Below, one piece after another: positions 46 through 9,994 of a stretch of 45,984 bases of DNA. The DNA is taken from assembly GCF_014879935.1 (NCBI RefSeq), contig NZ_JACSRD010000100.1, positions 1-45,984 of the forward strand. The letters are read 5' to 3'. The translations under genes were made by a program, and so were the position numbers. Numbering within the stretch: position 1 is the first letter of the stretch; every line of letters begins with the position of its first letter. This DNA is from Prosthecobacter sp. Its GTDB lineage: Bacteria; Verrucomicrobiota; Verrucomicrobiia; Verrucomicrobiales; Verrucomicrobiaceae. The notes below the pieces were generated by a model that was not told where the DNA came from, did no database searches, and worked only from the letters and a program-made list of their open reading frames with translations.

Positions 46-651
46 ATGCTGCCAGAAACCAAAAAGCGCGAGGTGCTGAACCTGGCGCAAAAGCGCCTTG
101 TCCGCACAAGGGATCTGGAAGCGCGTGGGGTGTCGCGAATGCAGTTGCGGAAGCTTGTGGATCAAGGAGTGCTTCAAAAAGCACAGCGTGGACTCTACAC
201 AGCTCCGAATGCGCATATGGACGCCCATGTTTCCCTGGCTGAGGTGGCAGTCCGCTCACCCAAGGCGGTGATCTGCCTGCTCTCGGCCCTCCGCTTCCAT
301 GAACTCACCACGGAGAACCCCGTGAATGTGTATGTCATGCTGCCCGTGGGTGTCCAGCGACCTCGGATGTCGAATCCCCGGCTTGAGGTCTTCTGGGCGT
401 CTCCCAATGCGTATCATGCTGGCATCGAGGAACACCTCATCTCCGGAGTGAAGGTCAGGATCACAAGTCCGGCCAAGACCGTAGTCGATTGTTTCAAATA
501 CCGCAGCAAGGTCGGCATCAACGTGGCCGTCGAAGCCCTGCGGGATGCCTGGCGAAAGAAAAAGGCTAGTGCCGATGAGCTTTGGAAGATCGCTCGTCTC
601 TGCCGGATGACGAACATCATGCGCCCCTACTTTGAAAGCATTGTGGCATGA
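46..651 (+). CDS. abiEi: AbiEi-family antitoxin of a type IV TA system
   Basis: This 201-residue protein is the expected length for an AbiEi antitoxin. Residues about 5-50 form a winged-helix DNA-binding domain (pattern LVRTRDLEARGVSR, then a wing QRGLYT), and the rest resembles the family's C-terminal antitoxin domain with an SPAKTVVDCF motif near residue 140. Family members repress their own operon and neutralise AbiEii without forming a stable complex. The stop overlaps the AbiEii start by four bases (ATGA at 648-651), which suggests translational coupling. The ATG lies only eight bases after the adapter, so the promoter is missing from this contig and a start further upstream cannot be excluded. 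Confidence 0.88.
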   Translation: MLPETKKREVLNLAQKRLVRTRDLEARGVSRMQLRKLVDQGVLQKAQRGLYTAPNAHMDAHVSLAEVAVRSPKAVICLLSALRFHELTTENPVNVYVMLPVGVQRPRMSNPRLEVFWASPNAYHAGIEEHLISGVKVRITSPAKTVVDCFKYRSKVGINVAVEALRDAWRKKKASADELWKIARLCRMTNIMRPYFESIVA

Positions 652-1568
652 ACAAAAAGGGCGCGCTCACCAACGTCGCGGCCTCCGTCCGTGACCGGCT
701 GAAAAAGATCTCCGTCGAGACCGGGCAGGATTTCAATACCTTGCTCACCCGGTATGCCATCGAACGGTTGCTGTTCCGTCTGGCAGCCTCAAAGCACCGG
801 CAACGATTTGTGCTCAAAGGTGCCATACTGTTCGCCCTCTGGCAGGAGACCCCTCATCGGGTGACGCGTGACCTCGACCTCCTTGGCTTTGGTGAGTCTT
901 CCATTGATGAGTTGATCGAAGTCTTCCGGGAGATCTGTGGGCAAAAAGTGACTGACGATGGCCTGGTCTTTGATTCTGCCTCAGTAATGGCTGAACCCAT
1001 TCGATCCCAGGAACTGTATGCAGGCGTCCGGGTGACGGTTCATGGCAAGATTGGCAACGCACGAACTCCGTTGCAGATCGACGTGGGATTTGGTGACGCC
1101 ACAGCCGTCAAACCGGAGGAGGTGGAATTTCCCAGCCTGCTGGACATGCCGACTCCGAAGCTTCGTGCGTATCGCATGGCAACCGCCCTCGCCGAAAAAT
1201 TCGAGGCAGCCGTGACACTCGGCATCCTGAACTCACGAATGAAGGATTATTACGACTTCTGGTTCCTGGCGAGTCATCACAGGTTCGATGGACAAGAGTT
1301 GGCAGACTCCATTCGTGCCACCTTCGACAGACGTGGCAGCAGCCTGCCATCCGATACGCCCATCGGCTTCAGTGACTCGTTTTGGTCCGACCCGAGCCGG
1401 CAGGTGATATGGAAAGCATTCTGGAAGAAGTCCGTCAAAACAGAACCAGCACTTTCACTTGATCAGGTTGTCCAGTTTGCCGCTTCATTCTTGCTCCCGC
1501 CCGCATCTGCCGCCGCCAAGAAGTCCAAGTTTAAACTTCACTGGAAGCCGGGAGGACCGTGGGAGTGA
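648..1568 (+). CDS. abiEii: AbiEii nucleotidyltransferase toxin
   Basis: This 306-residue protein belongs to the AbiEii/AbiGii nucleotidyltransferase family. Visible motifs are FVLKGAILFALW (about 54-65), the catalytic pair in TRDLDLLG (D75 and D77) and the later family signature RMKDYYDFWFL near residue 200. AbiEii toxins are GTP-binding transferases of the DNA polymerase beta-like fold that stop growth, and the pair gives abortive infection against phages in the characterised cases. The C-terminal 30 residues are lysine-rich. It overlaps its antitoxin gene by four bases and forms a two-gene operon. Location inside a mobile element suggests stabilisation of the element, anti-phage defence, or both. 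Confidence 0.9.
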   Translation: MNKKGALTNVAASVRDRLKKISVETGQDFNTLLTRYAIERLLFRLAASKHRQRFVLKGAILFALWQETPHRVTRDLDLLGFGESSIDELIEVFREICGQKVTDDGLVFDSASVMAEPIRSQELYAGVRVTVHGKIGNARTPLQIDVGFGDATAVKPEEVEFPSLLDMPTPKLRAYRMATALAEKFEAAVTLGILNSRMKDYYDFWFLASHHRFDGQELADSIRATFDRRGSSLPSDTPIGFSDSFWSDPSRQVIWKAFWKKSVKTEPALSLDQVVQFAASFLLPPASAAAKKSKFKLHWKPGGPWE

Positions 1569-2056: not shown

Positions 2057-2578
2057 TTACGCTGGCAGGTCCCATTCATCAAGATCGTCTGCCGGAGCGT
2101 CATAGCGCAACCAATTTGAATGCAGACTACGAAGCAGGTTTCTGAAGAACTCACGCTGTTCAGTATCAAACCCCTCTCCTGGTCCAGGCATGTTATATAT
2201 GAGGTTGCCACCTTCATGATTGAACGTGCGCCCAACATCGTTCAGGCGACCAAGGCAAAGCAGTTTGTAAAAGCCGGACTCGCTGATGACGCAATACCTA
2301 CTGGTTCGTTCTTCCGAGTCAGTCCATACTGCCGTAGTTCGTTGCGTGCGAGCAAACAGATGCTGGTTCCAACGAGGGGCTTCCTTGAGGCCCAACGCGT
2401 TTAATACATCCTCGCGCAAATACCAAGTCTCTTCCCCTTCCAGAATGGCTCGAATCCGCGAGCCAAAAAATGGCATGATGATGAAGCGTGGTCGGTGGAG
2501 ATGCAAAGATGGTGGCCGAATACGGCGATGTCTGGGCGACGAGGATGAGGGAGTGTTGAATTTCATTTTTGGTTTCAT
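2057..2578 (-). CDS. Bro-N domain protein (phage antirepressor-like)
   Basis: The protein is 173 residues from the chosen ATG at 2578. After a basic, proline- and serine-rich stretch of about 33 residues, residues about 35-110 match the Bro-N domain of phage antirepressors: a WYLREDVLNALG helix and the ISESGFYKLLCLGR signature. Bro-N domains bind DNA and are common in phage and virus regulators. No C-terminal KilA-C or ANT domain follows; the protein ends in an acidic tail. An in-frame start at 2665 would overlap the replicase gene by 53 bases; starting at 2578 leaves a 34-base gap and seems more natural. ATGs at 2566 and 2476 are also possible. It is the last gene of the minus-strand series and is likely a regulator. 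Confidence 0.75.
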   Translation of the reverse strand: MKPKMKFNTPSSSSPRHRRIRPPSLHLHRPRFIIMPFFGSRIRAILEGEETWYLREDVLNALGLKEAPRWNQHLFARTQRTTAVWTDSEERTSRYCVISESGFYKLLCLGRLNDVGRTFNHEGGNLIYNMPGPGEGFDTEQREFFRNLLRSLHSNWLRYDAPADDLDEWDLPA

Positions 2579-2612
2579 GTTTGTCAGCTTGTAAATTGGT
2601 TTGATGGGCTGG

Positions 2613-5600
2613 CTATTTTTCCGCCCAGGTCTCGATGGTTTTGACCTCCACTGTGATGTGGACATCAGGGAAGAGCTTCTTCATCTCTTCCACCATGATT
2701 TGTTCGACCATGGCTTCGACAGTCTCCGCCTCTTGGTCAGGAGCTTCGACAAGGATTTCATCGTGAATGCAACTGACGATCCTGCTTCCTGTAGGCAACT
2801 CCGTATGGAGGCGGCAAAGCGCGCGCTTGAGGCCGTCTGCAGCGGAACCTTGAACCGGCGTGTTCAGAAGCGATGAGTATCGCTTCCACCAGTTCTCCCG
2901 ACCTGAGGGTAGTAGTCTTCTCCTGCCGAGAATAGTCCGCACTTCCTCTGCACTGTTCGCTGCATCTGCCTGACGGGATTGCCAGTTGGCGAAGTGAGGA
3001 TATGCATTCAAAAAAGCGCTGCGGTAAGACTCGGCCTGCTCCCTGGTCAAAGTAACCCCGTAGCTTTTCCGTGCGTATTCAACCAACCCCTCGGCTCGTT
3101 GTCCGAAGAGCAGACCAAAGTTCACGGCTTTTGCGAGCTGACGTTCTTCTTTTCCAATCAGGAGCTTATCTTTGTTGAGCACAAGTGAAGCAGTTTGGAC
3201 GTGGAGATCAGTGCCAGCCGCGAATGCAACGATCATTCTCATCTCCTTTGACAAGGCCGCAGCCACCCTCAGCTCGATCTGGGAGTAATCACCACCAATA
3301 AGTTTATGCCCCTTCTTTGCCCGGATGCACGATCGCAACTCTCCGCGAGGAATGTTTTGCATGTTGGGATTGCTGCTACTGAAACGACCTGTTCGTGCCT
3401 TCAGAGGGTCGAAGGATGCATGAACACGCCCATCGGCTTCGATGTGATCCAACAAAGCGTCACAAGCCTCGACCGATTTTTTGGACCGGCGGTAGCGAAC
3501 AAGTTTGGACGCCACTGGATCATTGATTTGGCTCAAGGTGTCTTCTTTTGTGTCCTTAATCGCGTAGCCCCGTTGGCCCAAGACCGCCTTCACCTGCTGA
3601 GGGCTGTCAGGATTGAATGAAGATCCGGCGAGCTTGCCAAGTTCTTGCTCTTCTGCACTTGCATCCTGCTGGTAACGGTCACGGAGTGATTTAGCGTGCT
3701 CAATATCAACCTCAATGCCTTCGTTCTGTAAGGATACAGCCACCAATAGTGTGGACATTTCGAGATCAGCGGTGTCCTGCAGACTAGCCGCACGCAAACT
3801 GGCCTTGAGTTCATCTGCGAGTCTCACCAAATGCACCACATCCCGGGCAGCGTAGTCCAGTTGCTCCGGTGCAAGCGCGCCGCTCCAATCGGAAGCTCCG
3901 TGTTCTTTTTGGATCCTTACGTTGAGCACCCTATCCAGCACGGAGGCCAGATCGTGCGCAGGTGCGTCATCCCCGGCGTGGAGGATGCGGGATGCCGTCA
4001 TCGTGCAAAATACGGATGAAGCTGTGAATCCGTAACGCTTCGCCAGGAACGAGAGGTCGAAGCGAAGATTGTGGCCGATCAGGTGGCAATGCCGCAGCAC
4101 CTCCAGAACTGGCCCTATCGAAGCATTGACGGCTTGCAGGTCGATTACATAAACATTGTCATCAACGGCCAACTGGAGCAGCCTGATGTCACCTTTCCTT
4201 GGGTCAAGAGCATCGCCCTTCTCCTTTCCAAAAGTTTCAATGTCCAAGGCAACAGCTTTTTCCGGTGCACTACGCAAGGCTGCTTCGGCCAACGCCAAGC
4301 CGTCCTGCGTATGAACGTATGTATAATTCAGAATGGAGCCTGCAACTTCGCAAACATTGCAAACCTCAAACTGACGCGTTGATGGGGGATCACCCTCCGA
4401 AGCATGGTGAGACGAGGAAGGACACCCCGTTCCCTCTGTGCCGACCGCTGAAGCATCCTGATTGCATGTTTGCGAGGTTTGCGAGGTTTGCATCGACGGG
4501 CTGACTGGCTCTGGCCCATCCTGATTTTCCTTGGCCCGCACAAAAGCGAACTTTTTGCGATGTGGGTCCGAGGCATCAATTCGCATCTCAATTCCGGACA
4601 ACTCTCGCCCATCAAAACGTGCCAGAATCTTGCCCAGTTTGGTCTGGTCGTCCCTGTTGTCGAGCTTCAGGTAGGGAAAAGGCCATTCTTCTCCGGTCCG
4701 CATGATTTCGTACAGTTGGGTCTTGTTGATGGGTGCATTTCCAAACCGTTCGTGCGCTGAGAGGTAAACCCTCCGCATATCTTCCGTGTCGCGATCGCCA
4801 ATTTGTGTCTTGATGTCTGGTGGTCGTATGCAGGGATCACCAAGTTCGCATGCTGTCATGATACCGCCCACTATCCTGCTCCATGTTGGAAATGAGGCAA
4901 AAGGAGTTGGACCTTCAGGTCTTCCCATCTCTTGCCACCTCTTTAAAAGCGCAAAGAGAGCTCCTAGCAATCTGGGCCGGTTGCCTCTGACCCACTGTTG
5001 AAGATTGGGATGCCTGAATGTTCTGGCGTTCGGGTTTTCCCCGGGATAGCGAAGGCGTATAAAGATCGCTCGCGCATCAAGGTCAACGGTAAGCGTTGCC
5101 CCCACGTTCATTGACAATGAGTATTCAGCCTCATTGGGCAGCTCCAATTCGCGGGAGTGTCCAAGGCAGCGGTCTTTCCACAGCAGTGAAGCATCGGTAG
5201 CCGCTTCCAGGGAGGGGTAGTTGATGTGGCCCCGGAGGTTGGCTATATGGAAAAACGGATTTCCTGTCCGAAGTGCTGATGTGATGCGTTTTCGCATCTC
5301 GGCGTCACCATCCTTTTCCAACGGCGGAGCTACTGCGCCTTCGCCTGTGTAAAGGGTTGATACCATCATGGCTATGGTGTCCTTGCCAAGCCGTGGTTGG
5401 TTCGCCAGCATGATGAAGACCGGTGTTTTCTCCCACCGCATAAGCCCTCGGCAGAAAGGGGTGAGCAACCGGCTGATCGCTGATGTTTTGGAGAGCTCAT
5501 CGTGCCAAGGAAACCCACCCGACTCAGCATCACCCATTAGATCGTGGATGATTGTCAAGGCTTCGTCATAACTGACCTGCGCGATTTGCGGAGCTTTCGG

Positions 5601-7055
5601 GTCAAGGTACGTCTGATGCCGGGGATCATAGCCATGCCTTGGAAACTCAATGCCCCCATCTTCTCCTTGCACCGGTATGGGAACCTGAAGAACGCGGCCT
5701 ATGGTAGGAAGTTTGTCCTTCAGCGAGTGCGACTCCAACAAGGTGGATGCGATATCCATGGACATTGATTTTGGCACGAACCGCGACTCTCCGTCCCTCG
5801 CCGGCTTATGAATGCCAAACTCGATGTGTTCCTCGAATGCCGTGATGGCAGCCCTCGGAGTCAGTTGCTGGAGCTTGGTCCTGGATCCACTCGTGGGATG
5901 TGAGCGGATCTGAACAACCTCCTCCCCGCGCACATAGTAGCCAGACAAGCACGATAGCTCCTTTGTAACGTCCCGCACAAACAGCCTCAAGGGTTGCCCT
6001 TCACCAGGAAGAATCACGCGAGGTCGGTATCGCTCGCCGCAACAGTCGTCGATAAGATCGGGGTGGCTGGCGTCGAATGCAGCGATGGCCTCCGGTAGTT
6101 TCCGAGATTCACAATGCGCATGTGAGCAGTGGAAGGCAGCACGTCGCCCCTCATTTCCCTCAAATACTACAGTCGAACTGTCGTCGGGAGACCATTTCAG
6201 GCCCCCGTCCCCGTGCTCTTCGCAAAAGGGACACCTCACGGTGTGCTTCTTTTCAGGCCCCCCAAGCGCTTTGCCGTATTTCCCTGCCCGCGTGAACACC
6301 TCGACAATGTCGAGTGTTCGCAGGTCTCCCTTGTGGTTCCTCTGAAGTTGTTCCCATGCAAGCTCGATGTCATGTCCATGATCTTGAGCTTGGTGCGGAA
6401 GTTCAAAGCCAAACACATCCTGAAGAGTTTTCCACGAAATGACCCAGGGCTCACCGCACCCCACCCACTCGTAAACAAAACCGCACTCCCGCCGTGATGG
6501 AGGGACAGTGATGTGCATGCCCGACAAGAACAGTTCCGCGCCTACGGCACCGGGCAGAATCGAACGAAGTGGTGTGCCTCTTGGCGTGCCATCGGGTTTG
6601 AGTATGGTGGGCAGGTCCGGGCATCGGAAATAGACGTGCCGCCCGCCGCGTGTCGAGACGTTGAGCGCCCCCCTCAACTCGGGTCGTGAATCGGCCCAAC
6701 CCCGTGCGCTTGCGCCCTTGTCCACCTTACTGTCGAGATCCACAACGACATGCTGTGGCGGAAGAAGAATCGCTACATTGTGCGGATTCACACCACCCCA
6801 GTAGCGGTGCTGCGTTGCGCTGTCGCTCCAGTCGGGCTGGAGGTCGCGGTAACCTTTGATGGCGGGTACCTTTCCATCCTGTCGACCAGGTCCTGAACCG
6901 GGAGGATGCAAAGGGAAGACTGTGATGCCCATGTCGGCATAAATCTCCGCCGCTTCCAGTGGGCTGGTCGGAAAGCTTGAGGGGATGAGAATTCTTGGGC
7001 TATCCTGCTGCTTGGAGACCCCTTGCGATTTATCTGAATTGGTGTAAATTTTCAT
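2613..7055 (-). CDS. Fused primase-polymerase / helicase / 3'-5' exonuclease / family A DNA polymerase
   Basis: This 1480-residue protein combines several replication activities. Residues about 33-220 are a Prim-Pol (archaeo-eukaryotic primase) domain, with catalytic acidic residues in VVVDLDSK (D106, D108) and the histidine of GGRHVYF (H140). Cysteines 275, 278, 310 and 315 form a zinc motif. Residues about 480-760 resemble phage/plasmid primase-helicase ATPases, but the Walker A is unusual (QPRLGKDT, near 552-559). Residues about 923-1088 are a DnaQ-like exonuclease with D938, E940, D1000 and a YAARD motif. Residues about 1093-1480 are the Pol I core: motif A GGDYSQIELR, the O-helix RQLAKAVNFGLLFG, motif C CIHDE. 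No 5'-3' exonuclease domain is present. The ATG at 7055 begins the conserved part; an in-frame ATG at 7256 would overlap the HTH gene. It probably replicates the element. Confidence 0.9.
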   Translation of the reverse strand: MKIYTNSDKSQGVSKQQDSPRILIPSSFPTSPLEAAEIYADMGITVFPLHPPGSGPGRQDGKVPAIKGYRDLQPDWSDSATQHRYWGGVNPHNVAILLPPQHVVVDLDSKVDKGASARGWADSRPELRGALNVSTRGGRHVYFRCPDLPTILKPDGTPRGTPLRSILPGAVGAELFLSGMHITVPPSRRECGFVYEWVGCGEPWVISWKTLQDVFGFELPHQAQDHGHDIELAWEQLQRNHKGDLRTLDIVEVFTRAGKYGKALGGPEKKHTVRCPFCEEHGDGGLKWSPDDSSTVVFEGNEGRRAAFHCSHAHCESRKLPEAIAAFDASHPDLIDDCCGERYRPRVILPGEGQPLRLFVRDVTKELSCLSGYYVRGEEVVQIRSHPTSGSRTKLQQLTPRAAITAFEEHIEFGIHKPARDGESRFVPKSMSMDIASTLLESHSLKDKLPTIGRVLQVPIPVQGEDGGIEFPRHGYDPRHQTYLDPKAPQIAQVSYDEALTIIHDLMGDAESGGFPWHDELSKTSAISRLLTPFCRGLMRWEKTPVFIMLANQPRLGKDTIAMMVSTLYTGEGAVAPPLEKDGDAEMRKRITSALRTGNPFFHIANLRGHINYPSLEAATDASLLWKDRCLGHSRELELPNEAEYSLSMNVGATLTVDLDARAIFIRLRYPGENPNARTFRHPNLQQWVRGNRPRLLGALFALLKRWQEMGRPEGPTPFASFPTWSRIVGGIMTACELGDPCIRPPDIKTQIGDRDTEDMRRVYLSAHERFGNAPINKTQLYEIMRTGEEWPFPYLKLDNRDDQTKLGKILARFDGRELSGIEMRIDASDPHRKKFAFVRAKENQDGPEPVSPSMQTSQTSQTCNQDASAVGTEGTGCPSSSHHASEGDPPSTRQFEVCNVCEVAGSILNYTYVHTQDGLALAEAALRSAPEKAVALDIETFGKEKGDALDPRKGDIRLLQLAVDDNVYVIDLQAVNASIGPVLEVLRHCHLIGHNLRFDLSFLAKRYGFTASSVFCTMTASRILHAGDDAPAHDLASVLDRVLNVRIQKEHGASDWSGALAPEQLDYAARDVVHLVRLADELKASLRAASLQDTADLEMSTLLVAVSLQNEGIEVDIEHAKSLRDRYQQDASAEEQELGKLAGSSFNPDSPQQVKAVLGQRGYAIKDTKEDTLSQINDPVASKLVRYRRSKKSVEACDALLDHIEADGRVHASFDPLKARTGRFSSSNPNMQNIPRGELRSCIRAKKGHKLIGGDYSQIELRVAAALSKEMRMIVAFAAGTDLHVQTASLVLNKDKLLIGKEERQLAKAVNFGLLFGQRAEGLVEYARKSYGVTLTREQAESYRSAFLNAYPHFANWQSRQADAANSAEEVRTILGRRRLLPSGRENWWKRYSSLLNTPVQGSAADGLKRALCRLHTELPTGSRIVSCIHDEILVEAPDQEAETVEAMVEQIMVEEMKKLFPDVHITVEVKTIETWAEK

Positions 7056-7110: not shown

Positions 7111-7542
7111 TTATTGGGCGGAACTGGTTGGCGTGGATTTTTGAGCGAGGTCCGACTCGGAAAGGTCCGTGGCTGCTTGAGCGTGCAGGTGTTCGATGAG
7201 GCTGCGAAGATGGATAAGTCTTTGTCCTCGAGTTGCTCCCCGTCGTCGCAGGACAACAGATTTTACAGGGGCTCGTGCTGGCAGTATGAGTTCGCAAATG
7301 GCAGACCTTGAAAGACCTGTCCACGGACAGCGCGTTCCTGACTTTGGGAGACGCACGAACTCGGGCAGAAAGCGTGCGATGTCGAAGTCCTCTTTGAGTG
7401 GGAGTAACCTCGGTATTCGGATGAGTTCCGGCCCAACATTTGATGTTAACGGCAATGAGAGAGAGGCGACGGAAGGCTCGGGCAGATGGGCTGCCGTCAT
7501 CGTCGCGAAACGTCGTTGGTGATCTTGGATTTTCTGAAACAT
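7111..7542 (-). CDS. Small HTH / excisionase-like DNA-binding protein
   Basis: This 143-residue protein has a central segment (about 65-122) of the pattern LPKSGTRCPWTGLSRSAICEL, then SVVLRRRGATRGQRLIHLRSL. This resembles small helix-turn-helix proteins of the AlpA/excisionase kind that I associate with integrated elements in Verrucomicrobiota, where a 'GLSRS' recognition helix is followed by an 'RG.RLI' wing. Its position between integrase and replicase genes fits a recombination directionality factor or a replication regulator. The C-terminal 25 residues are low-complexity. An alternative start is the ATG at 7500. The match is by eye only; the exact family is unproved. Confidence 0.65.
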   Translation of the reverse strand: MFQKIQDHQRRFATMTAAHLPEPSVASLSLPLTSNVGPELIRIPRLLPLKEDFDIARFLPEFVRLPKSGTRCPWTGLSRSAICELILPARAPVKSVVLRRRGATRGQRLIHLRSLIEHLHAQAATDLSESDLAQKSTPTSSAQ

Positions 7543-7661: not shown

Positions 7662-8588
7662 CTATTTTTTTCTCACGACTATTTGGTAGCCGTTCGGTTG
7701 GAACGAGGGGGCTGGATAAGCCTTCCCGTGAAGTGAGGTGAATACGCTTCCTTTTATCTCATATCCGTTGATGGACAAGACTCCCGCCTGTGCGTGAGCG
7801 GCAGTTATTGGCGTCTGACTACTACGCTTAAACCTCTTTCCTCTGAGGCGGTTGTTGACCGCCTCCTGAGTCATATTGGTTCGAGGGGGAAGAGCTTTGC
7901 ATGCCTGAAAAATGGCCGGTCTTTCCATCAACCAGAGCGGACAGTGGGGGTTCGTCCAATTGGCTGCCATGATCCACCTTTGGTCATCAACACCAAGCCT
8001 ATCGGCTCGCGTTTCAGCGTTTTTGAAGTCCTCTGCCAGTCGCTTCAAAAACTTGGAGCCACCGCTGCCTATTCCGTCAGCCAGAAACTCACTTACTTTT
8101 TCACTGCTGATCTGAATGCCGGGATCTTCGATCAACAGTGCCCGATAAAGCGCCTTGTTCATAGCCCCATCCTCGTCCTTCAAATATCTCATGGCTTGGT
8201 TTGTGGCACAGTCGAAAAGAATGCCGCGAGCCGACCGACGAGCCTCCACATACTGCTGTTCAATGTCCTTCACTCCAGATGCTTTCATGATCTCGATGAG
8301 ATCCTCCTGGATAGAATCAGGCGGGCGCATAGAACTAAGGTTGTAGAATAGCCGCTCACCGGCGTGACGCAGCAGAACGGCGATGGGATGATCTTGAAAC
8401 GGAGGGCGAACTTCGAGCGTCCCAGGAAGATCGTCGGCAAACAGTTCTCTAAAATATCCGATGTTCTTCTTCGCGACCGTCACAGACCTTGATTCCGGCG
8501 ATGTGTTCGTCGGTGTGGCTTTCTTCGCTTTGGATCTAGAGCGCTTAGCCTTCGTTGGTGGCTTCTTGCCTGTCGGCTTTTTCCTCAT
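7662..8588 (-). CDS. Unknown basic protein of the integrated element
   Basis: I do not recognise this 308-residue protein. The first 35 residues are very rich in lysine, arginine, threonine and proline, suggesting nucleic-acid binding or a disordered tail. The rest is mixed alpha-helical in character with motifs such as MRPPDSIQEDLIEIMKASGV and NWTNPHCPLWLMERPAI. No signal peptide or membrane segment is apparent. It sits 36 bases downstream of the integrase gene and 119 bases upstream of the HTH gene on the same strand, so it probably belongs to the same transcription unit. It could be an accessory protein of integration or replication; this is position-based inference only. Confidence 0.6.
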   Translation of the reverse strand: MRKKPTGKKPPTKAKRSRSKAKKATPTNTSPESRSVTVAKKNIGYFRELFADDLPGTLEVRPPFQDHPIAVLLRHAGERLFYNLSSMRPPDSIQEDLIEIMKASGVKDIEQQYVEARRSARGILFDCATNQAMRYLKDEDGAMNKALYRALLIEDPGIQISSEKVSEFLADGIGSGGSKFLKRLAEDFKNAETRADRLGVDDQRWIMAANWTNPHCPLWLMERPAIFQACKALPPRTNMTQEAVNNRLRGKRFKRSSQTPITAAHAQAGVLSINGYEIKGSVFTSLHGKAYPAPSFQPNGYQIVVRKK

Positions 8589-8624: not shown

Positions 8625-9773
8625 TTACACTGTCACATCAGGCAGCGCACTCGCCGCCTTCTTCAGGGCCTCGCTGCCAACGTGAGTGTAGTGTTCCGAC
8701 ATCTGCTCGCTGTCATGCCCGATCAGTTCCTGAACCACGGCATGAGGGACGCCGGCTTCCTTAAGCAGCGTGACAGCGGTGTGACGCAAGCTGTGGAAAG
8801 ACAACTGGGCACCGGTCTTGGCTCCTGTGCGGCCATTCTTCTCCTTCTCTTTCTTGTGGCTCACCTTGTCGCGCAGCCCTGCTGCCGCCAGCAGGTTGGC
8901 GAACTGGTTGCTCAGAGTGCTCGTCTTGTAGTTCTTATTCAACGTGGCAGCAGCACGAGGATGGATGGGGCCGGTGCCAGTATCCTTCTTGCGTAGCAAC
9001 TTCAGATGGGAGAGCAGAGGCGAAGCAATGGGGATGATCATGCGTCGTCCTGTCTTGGCCGTCTCGAAGCGCATTTCAACCTTCTCCAGGTTCACCTGTG
9101 CCCAAGTGAAGGCAGCCACATCCGAGAGTCTCTGTCCTGTGTAGAGAGCAAACAAAATCATCGAGCGCCATTCATCGTCAGCTTGAGCCAGCACACTGCG
9201 AATCTCCTCCTGCGTGAATGGCCTGCGCTCAAAGCCCCCCTTCTTTTTGACCCGCTCCACAAACTCGGCCGGATTCTCTGCGATCAGAGTGTCCCTCCGT
9301 GCCGTCTTGAACATCATTCGGGCGCACTTGATGTGATGGTTGGTGCTCGTGGAAGACAGGGTGGAGGCGAGAGCCTTTCTGTAGCCGATTAAATCGCCTC
9401 TAGTCACCAAGGAGATCTCTTGGTCTGCTCGCTCTCCGAGGAAATCCAACAGCTTCGTGGTGGATGTCCCGTAGAAGTGCATGGTCGCAGGCTTCGTTTC
9501 GTCTTTTTTCTCGGCCAGCCAGTTTTTCACATGCTCCCGGACAGTCACAGACTTCAAATCCTCTCCAGTGATCTCCCGGTGCAGATCTTGGAGGACGGTG
9601 CGCACCTGGCTAAACGTCCGGCGTTTCCGGGCAGCTTGCTCATACTGCTCCGCCAGCTTCTCGGCCTTCCTGCGGTTCGTCTCTTTCGTGGAGCGCTTTT
9701 TTCGCCTCCCATCAAGGTCCGTGAAGCACGCCGTCCAGTAGGGCGAGTTGGGGTGTTTCCAGACAGAGGCCAT
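8625..9773 (-). CDS. Tyrosine recombinase / integrase
   Basis: The protein is 382 residues from the ATG at 9773 (MASVWKHPNSPYW), a start typical of this integrase group; the open frame continues upstream to 9911 but only across the attachment region. Residues about 1-50 are an arm-binding-like domain, about 75-160 a SAM-like core-binding domain, and about 180-375 the catalytic domain. The active-site set is complete: R215 (TGQRLSD), K240, H327 and R330 (HSLRH), H353 (GHDS) and the nucleophile Y362 (EHYTH). It would integrate and excise the element at the tRNA-Gly site whose 3' fragment begins 141 bases from its start codon. Confidence 0.95.
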   Translation of the reverse strand: MASVWKHPNSPYWTACFTDLDGRRKKRSTKETNRRKAEKLAEQYEQAARKRRTFSQVRTVLQDLHREITGEDLKSVTVREHVKNWLAEKKDETKPATMHFYGTSTTKLLDFLGERADQEISLVTRGDLIGYRKALASTLSSTSTNHHIKCARMMFKTARRDTLIAENPAEFVERVKKKGGFERRPFTQEEIRSVLAQADDEWRSMILFALYTGQRLSDVAAFTWAQVNLEKVEMRFETAKTGRRMIIPIASPLLSHLKLLRKKDTGTGPIHPRAAATLNKNYKTSTLSNQFANLLAAAGLRDKVSHKKEKEKNGRTGAKTGAQLSFHSLRHTAVTLLKEAGVPHAVVQELIGHDSEQMSEHYTHVGSEALKKAASALPDVTV

Positions 9774-9913
9774 AACCGAAAAAAGTAAGAACAGGAGTAA
9801 GAACATCCAACCTTGTTTCGGGATGTCCAGCGAAATTCGGAAATCGCGCTCTTCCTTGTAAATCAAGGGTTTCAGACGTTCCCAAACATCCCCAAACAAC
9901 CGCCTGGGCAAAC
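9774..9913. other. Attachment-region DNA between integrase and tRNA fragment
   Basis: This stretch lies between the integrase start and the tRNA-Gly fragment and has no gene. It contains a 5-bp palindrome ccttg-taaat-caagg (9854-9868) and a tandem pair of near-identical 10-mers (cccaaacatc at 9881-9890, cccaaacaac at 9891-9900). Short repeats in this position are what one expects of integrase arm sites or an excisionase site, and the integrase promoter must also be here. The specific roles are inferred. Confidence 0.4.
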
Positions 9914-9941
9914 GTGGGTTCGATTCCCATCACCCGCTCCA
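9914..9941 (+). other. att site: 3' fragment of tRNA-Gly
   Basis: The bases read as a T-arm (stem GTGGG, loop TTCGATT, stem CCCAT), then the 3' acceptor strand CACCCGC, discriminator T and CCA. Acceptor ending CCCGC with U73-CCA is characteristic of bacterial tRNA-Gly. The matching 5' acceptor strand GCGGGTG and the D and anticodon arms are absent upstream, so this is not a functional tRNA but the copy left by site-specific integration. Confidence 0.85.
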
Positions 9942-9994
9942 CGGCCCTGACAGCCGTGTCTCATGGCGGACGAGGCCCGTTCCCGGCCAGCCCT

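Follow-up and report, generated by a model that had tools for sequence, protein, structure and literature searches.

Plasmodium PREX unites a primase, a helicase, an exonuclease and a Pol A in one reading frame, with a primase-helicase of another type than that of the protein described here; the chains of ORF904, NrS-1, SaPI5 and D5/E5 are not known to contain an exonuclease or a Pol A. PREX, a eukaryotic enzyme of apicoplast replication and repair, is proteolytically processed, as cited in the accessible text of PMC7689252. The same text describes the Pol of the Aquificae virus OS3173, a chain of 1606 aa in which Pol A and a 3'-5' exonuclease are fused to an N-terminal helicase/primase-like region. 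In the lactococcal phage 1706, GP55 (1317 aa) combines an SF3 helicase, an AEP, a proofreading exonuclease and a DNA polymerase, and all four activities have been assayed (PMC12205980, accessible part). Smaller combinations have also been reported: AEP-helicase fusions are described as common in mobile elements in the accessible text of PMC5862659, and the TV-Pol/D5 fusion of a mobile element (Sputnik V13) combines a D5-like helicase with a Pol A-related domain (PMC2579912). The word exonuclease is absent from the accessible part of the latter paper, as are "fused" and "fusion" from that of the paper on polymerase swapping (PMC11348598).

By sequence, P0001, a chain of 1480 residues encoded by a mobile element, joins a predicted primase to a ring-type ATPase-like domain, a proofreading exonuclease and a DNA polymerase. 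It is encoded in the window, that is, the whole stretch of 45,984 nt of Prosthecobacter sp. DNA that was analyzed. The first-pass annotation had regarded the presence of all these parts in one chain as unusual, a view to be corrected, with the four-in-one replicase GP55 (a Pol B enzyme) and the Pol A polyproteins of Aquificae viruses and PREX already in print. All-in-one replicases are already known; what is new is the combination found in P0001, together with an altered ATPase site. In the literature search, with subscription papers mostly outside its range, no chain with AEP, SF3, exonuclease and Pol A was recognized from the title or the start of the abstract among the matches listed. The comparison suggests repeated origins of all-in-one replicases, both with Pol A and with Pol B.

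Each of the described systems differs from P0001 in at least one part. ORF904 of pRN1, the NrS-1 polymerase, the SaPI5 primase-helicase and D5/E5 share an AEP and/or an SF3-type fold with P0001. In GP55, the polymerase is a Pol B and not a Pol A, the helicase precedes the primase, and conserved Walker A and B motifs are reported (PMC12205980, accessible part). GP55 was rejected as a homologue of P0001, given this difference in the polymerase and a BLASTP comparison without significant similarity (best E 0.63). The ATPase of OS3173 Pol differs from that of P0001 in being of the DUF927 type, with consensus Walker A and B motifs, and the accessible part of its published description does not mention a Prim-Pol (PMC7689252). 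DUF927 had no match in P0001 (E up to 1) or in 28 family members (E up to 0.01), and membership in the DUF927-type Pol A polyproteins was therefore rejected. TV-Pol is described as a minimal polymerase for which self-priming is proposed, with no AEP in the fusion (PMC2579912, accessible part). By sequence, the PREX polymerase is among the closest solved structures to the Pol A of P0001, behind 8jrb.

Pas55 of the Actinoplanes phage phiAsp2 (1415 aa) has a homologous ATPase-like part followed by Pol A, as in P0001, but carries DUF3854 instead of Prim-Pol, and its Walker A motif reads GKN, with DE at Walker B. The DUF3854 domain of Pas55 is presumably TOPRIM-like. DEDD exonuclease motifs were seen in Pas55 only by eye, with no Pfam exonuclease match. 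Pas55 is covered completely or almost completely by three IMG/VR relatives (72–79% identity), and the two of these that were scanned show matches to DUF3854 and Pol A. These differences suggest that the primase part was exchanged on a shared ATPase-polymerase chassis.

The fusion gene and its catalytic domains

The gene lies at positions 2613..7055, the coordinates given in the first-pass annotation, on the minus strand, which had not been stated there; the domain coordinates below refer to this strand. Translation starts at an ATG at 7055 and ends at a stop codon at 2613–2615, and the 1480 residues form a continuous frame, as had been claimed, within an enclosing open frame of 1549. The plus-strand reading of the same interval contains stops throughout. 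In NCBIfam, the chain best matches a model named "bifunctional 3'-5' exonuclease/DNA polymerase", without reaching its cut-off. Relatives were collected in two ways: a profile of the ATPase part, run against a single genome of each species, yielded 38 loci, and a search of viral contigs with an alignment of the same part added eight loci from IMG/VR, 46 in all. The conservation alignment comprises 38 rows, including the window, after loci with frames of less than 1000 aa were left out.

The N-terminal Prim-Pol (AEP) domain (residues 38–198; 6462..6944) is predicted from a match to Pfam PF09250 (E 5e-11; 43.6 bits versus a cut-off of 22.8), from the fold and from conservation. An AlphaFold model of residues 22–880 was built with 38 sequences (mean pLDDT 83.5, pTM 0.56). 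In this model, residues 8–201, corresponding to P0001 residues 29–222, align with the ORF904 PrimPol over 171 residues (Z 13.8, rmsd 3.1; Foldseek, VIA-align), so that the AEP fold, singled out for checking in the annotation, is predicted. Residues D106, D108, H140 and E174, which we take to be the AEP motif positions (DxD, H, acidic), are nearly invariant among the 29 to 36 of the 38 rows with a letter there. The sole departures are H140K in loci L040 and L051 and E174K in L040, and in both of these loci another primase domain is present. Further along the chain, all six residues of a putative zinc-binding motif, C275..H281..C310-x-H312-x-H314-C315 (6111..6233), are identical in all 37 rows with a letter at these positions, from which we infer that the motif may bind zinc.

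The C-terminal part of the chain corresponds to a 3'-5' exonuclease (residues 911–1087; 3795..4325; Pfam E 3e-24) and a family A DNA polymerase (residues 1120–1479; 2619..3698; Pfam DNA_pol_A E 2e-80), both also indicated by conservation. We take D938, E940, N996, D1000, Y1068 and D1072 to be the DEDDy motif residues of the exonuclease, and D1256, R1305, K1309, F1313, H1431, D1432 and E1433 to be the residues of polymerase motifs A, B and C. The Klenow layout, with Pol A motifs A, B and C and the DEDDy exonuclease residues, is present. Again with 29 to 36 of the 38 rows carrying a letter, the only departures are at K1309 and F1313 in L033, a locus with a broken frame, and E1433Q in L058. Checked by position and by conservation across the relatives, the AEP, exonuclease and Pol A motifs are thus intact in one chain, in agreement with the annotation. 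The segment linking the exonuclease to the ring part (about residues 845–905; 4341..4523) is poorly conserved and of low confidence, with pLDDT values below 50 over model residues 823–859, that is, P0001 residues 844–880, where the model ends.

Predicted fold and putative nucleotide-binding site of the central domain

The middle part of P0001 had no Pfam match, no NCBIfam match and no significant match to a PDB sequence. Profile searches, one with the ATPase part and one with the N-terminal two thirds, also retrieved no significant PDB sequence, the top of the latter search being ORF904 at E 0.19. Three PHROGs models matched the middle part, two with no known function and a third labeled DNA polymerase/primase. 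A fold was assigned from the AlphaFold model and PDB comparison: model residues 321–819 resemble the SaPI5 primase-helicase (7ola, Z 15.5), vaccinia D5 (8apl, Z 12.9), NrS-1 (6k9c, Z 12.8) and MPOX E5 (Z 12.8), with Foldseek E values of 7e-8 to 2e-5 for the SF3/D5 matches. Because these matches are on top and MCM chains rank below them, with Z about 11, the modeled domain (residues 342–840; 4536..6032) can safely be placed in the AAA+ class, and its assignment as SF3/D5-like is likely.

The putative nucleotide-binding site of this domain is altered at both Walker motifs. The Walker A motif, N552-QPRL-G557-K558-D559 (5379..5402), is atypical in that Asp replaces Ser/Thr, and at the Walker B position, H603-I-A605-N606 (5238..5249), which the model places at the end of a beta-strand, the acid is absent. 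Walker A ends with GKD in all 38 rows, and none has the GK[ST] of SF3/D5 proteins. Likewise, all 38 rows lack the Walker B acid, with A in 37 of them and G in one, giving the pattern H-x-[A/G]-N. None of the 38 rows departs from K558, N650, D658 or R662, and K558 and D559 stay fixed among varying adjacent positions. We know of no other P-loop layout that combines GKD with the absence of a Walker B acid.

The two alterations occur together in a broader set. Rows with a gap at the scored residues were left out of both counts that follow. Among 46 distinct motif combinations, 27 of the 28 with GKD carry N after A, G or S, the remaining one having T-D; in the 18 combinations without GKD, the acid position is occupied by D (16), E (1) or Q (1). 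In the tree set, 51 of 51 GKD rows lack the acid at position 605, and 17 of 18 other rows have it. Three of five phage relatives of the domain are without the Walker A lysine and have kept the acid. The trees excluded matches with fewer than 180 filled columns, L001 and L004–L019; 15 of the last 16 represent the same DNA as kept loci, L008 being the one that does not. On the tree, the co-occurrence of GKD with an absent acid comes down to about two independent changes (sign test, p 0.5), and an AU test rejects a single clade of all GKD rows (p 7e-63) on a tree that is unsure owing to long branches.

These data bear on a tentative reading in which an active SF3-like ring with a rewired metal site, the acid having moved to D559, would drive a chain that primes, copies and proofreads, with the primase exchanged on a shared chassis. 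The carboxylate of the Walker B aspartate would now follow the Walker A lysine, with A, G or S at the old site, and the primase modules would be Prim-Pol or BT4734-like, or DUF3854 in the phage relatives. The Walker A and B positions differ together, yet on the tree this amounts to only about two changes, and we therefore put the moved acid forward as a conjecture that is more likely wrong than right. If the altered site works, it would be a test case for a P-loop motor that moves its metal-binding acid.

Related ATPase-like parts also occur outside the fusion. A separate group of ten proteins with frames of 547–953 aa (L086–L091, L093–L095 and L097) contains such a part, with GKG in seven and GKT in three; no Pol A motif was present in the frames examined.

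A probable division of labor between P0001 and a separate helicase

In the reading that we consider probable, P0001 is a phage-derived single-chain replicase in which priming falls to Prim-Pol, copying to Pol A and proofreading to the exonuclease, with the ring serving either as a platform that binds nucleotide or as an atypical motor. The N-terminal Prim-Pol would make primers on a single-stranded template, which would be handed via the flexible linker to the C-terminal Pol A and extended there, and the exonuclease, located between Prim-Pol and Pol A, would proofread. Judging from its fold and the invariant K558, the SF3/D5-like domain would most likely assemble the chain into an oligomer around the DNA, and it may bind nucleotide. 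With GKD and no Walker B acid, this ring part would be either an atypical motor or mainly a structural platform. Unwinding of the fork would probably be done, or shared, by a separate helicase, a Pif1/Dda-like SF1 enzyme in many relatives. A compact enzyme that primes, copies and proofreads would be of practical interest for DNA amplification.

Genes for a Pif1/Dda-like helicase are present in 27 of the 46 loci, and lie upstream of the fusion in 23 of the 36 loci with at least 1.5 kb of upstream sequence; the other 13 of these 36 had no Pif1-like helicase match. In L028, for example, the gene matches PIF1 (E 1e-25) and the Dda-like phrog_325 (E 4e-63). Walker A and B patterns were found in 22 of the 27 copies, and the remaining five are partial ORFs without that region. 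Of the 23 upstream genes, 22 end within about 0.5 kb of the fusion frame or overlap it, and in L051 a paralogue lies between the two genes. This paralogue (L051 5916–7298) is a second, free-standing, degenerate ATPase part directly upstream of the fusion gene, with a frame of 461 aa that has GKD but T-D. The relatives' Pif1-like helicase had no match in the window; a search of the window's genome, run without a positive control and thus showing little, also yielded no match. The idea of an outsourced helicase therefore rests on the relatives.

The first-pass annotation had proposed that the protein would prime, unwind, copy and proofread. Sequence supports priming, copying and proofreading, three of the four GP55-type activities; the helicase activity is doubtful, given the missing canonical Walker A Ser/Thr and Walker B acid in every aligned row and the separate helicase genes, most of them with both Walker motifs. 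P0001 might nevertheless be a true four-in-one replicase, in which the SF3-like ring is a working helicase for the same chain, as in GP55. The SF3/D5 fold, the invariance of K558, the sensor N650, D658 and R662, the absence from the window of the kind of helicase found in the relatives, and the GP55 precedent itself (PMC12205980, accessible part) speak for this possibility. We nonetheless rate it clearly below the platform or atypical-motor reading, since in all 38 rows the residue after the Walker A lysine is not Ser/Thr and the Walker B acid is absent, and nearly two thirds of the eligible relatives have a separate helicase gene upstream.

Less likely still is a dead pseudo-ATPase, a central domain whose only task would be to keep the enzyme parts together, with no role for nucleotides. 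The canonical metal-binding residues are gone, and the loss of the Walker A lysine in the phage relatives noted above points in the same direction. However, a dead site should drift, and K558 and D559 are invariant among variable neighbors; the conservation of K558, N650, D658 and R662 likewise argues against a dead ATPase. If the site should be inactive after all, a primase-polymerase would be able to dispense with its own motor and rely on a different helicase.

Genomic context and spread of the fusion family

The annotation had placed the gene in an integrated element with its own integrase, and this is borne out. A tyrosine integrase (8625..9911, minus strand; Pfam PF00589, 2e-21; phrog_1, 3e-55) adjoins a 31-bp att repeat (9912..9942, plus strand), the probable right border, which is identical to the 3' end of an intact tRNA-Gly(CCC). 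Such a pairing of integrase and tRNA-derived att repeat is the arrangement of a tRNA-targeting element. The contig ends inside the element, and the intact tRNA-Gly is located on a separate contig, C147. Positions 1–37 of the window are presumably Nextera adapter sequence, so that the contig probably opens with non-genomic bases and the element is truncated at this point. Between the integrase and the fusion gene lie genes on the minus strand for a 308-aa protein (7662..8588), for which Pfam, PHROGs, NCBIfam and PADLOC gave no noteworthy match, and, next to the fusion gene, for a small 143-aa ORF (7111..7542) with no family match. Directly downstream of the replicase gene, a Bro-N/antirepressor-like protein is encoded (2057..2665, minus strand; phrog_9976, 2e-8; PF02498, 2e-4, below the Pfam cut-off), and an AbiEi/AbiEii toxin-antitoxin pair (46–651 and 648–1568, plus strand), identified by family matches, is probable cargo. 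No phage structural gene was seen among the scanned ORFs of the 9.9-kb element part (Pfam, PHROGs). On C147 (G000:C147, about 40,600–54,800, L073), genes resembling by eye those for a sigma factor, a protein kinase, a DnaK-like and a ClpB-like protein lie to the right of the tRNA-Gly, followed by ImmA-like and PIN-like genes, also by eye; this cluster might form the opposite flank of the island that holds the element.

In the relatives, the gene neighborhood looks like a phage early-replication block. In addition to the helicase genes, a PD-(D/E)XK nuclease gene is found in 15 of the 46 loci, a small gene downstream that weakly matches a sigma factor in 17, and a terminase small subunit gene beside L062. 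The model phrog_2, which we take to represent the large terminase subunit, matches four of the eight IMG/VR records weakly (27.4 bits or less) and also matches 11 of 14 control genomes. The neighborhood resembles the block of helicase, nuclease and Pol A polyprotein genes of Aquificae viruses (PMC7689252, accessible part). It is very improbable that P0001 is a defense or repair protein carried as cargo instead of a replicase, an explanation to which the AbiE pair nearby and a match of the polymerase part to the PADLOC model for RT-associated Pol A (E 1.5e-39) might point: this match is limited to the generic Pol A part (residues 1090–1471), and the relatives reside in phage-type neighborhoods, eight of them in IMG/VR contigs.

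The frames of the 46 loci are uninterrupted through Pol A in 27 cases, run off the contig C-terminally in 12 and N-terminally in one, and are broken in six. An assembly or frameshift artefact that fused two or more genes, which the apparent adapter at the contig start and the six broken frames might suggest and of which the annotation had named the frameshift as a possible refutation, is practically excluded for the family by the 27 uninterrupted frames; the recurrence of the fusion in relatives shows that it is not a chance frame.

A set of full-length fusions thus exists; the annotation had asked for a monophyletic one in integrated elements. In nine of 288 genomes of the order, besides the window's own, 10 places align with the query as a single stretch over more than 97% of its length, at 38–46% identity. 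Eight of the nine near-full-length places with an available locus are on the same contigs as loci of the profile scan; the two sets overlap, and their counts must not be added. Two further fusions were found in genomes related only at the phylum level, and 22 of 387 genomes of a phylum-level set match the ATPase profile at E 1e-6. All but one of the 38 genome loci are labeled Verrucomicrobiota; the exception, L039, is labeled Planctomycetota, yet is nested among the others in the tree. When viral contigs were searched, the single P0001 sequence had no match, but the ATPase-part alignment did. Three other ATPase parts, each used as a single-protein query, had no match, and a fourth retrieved two near copies of itself.

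Among the 28 full-length members, including the window, Pfam Pol A and exonuclease matches are present in all 28, Prim-Pol in 25 and BT4734-like_N in two. One of the uninterrupted frames, L047, is without the N-terminal AEP, its alignment starting at query residue 171. By sequence, the BT4734-like members are L040 and L051, and they belong to separate supported subclades of the tree, so that the primase part was probably exchanged within the family. With L040, L047 and L051 left out, the pairwise distances of AEP and Pol A are correlated with r 0.88 (25 rows); for the ATPase part and Pol A, r is 0.50 (28 rows). This only moderate correlation is a hint that the ATPase segment partly has its own history and may have been exchanged between lineages, and a single fusion event is not proved. 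L058, L056 and L020 form a divergent subgroup with a GN motif, in which the ATPase part is far from the rest, yet Pol A (L018, the same contig as L058, and L020) is 46% identical to that of the window, which also suggests an exchange of the ATPase segment.
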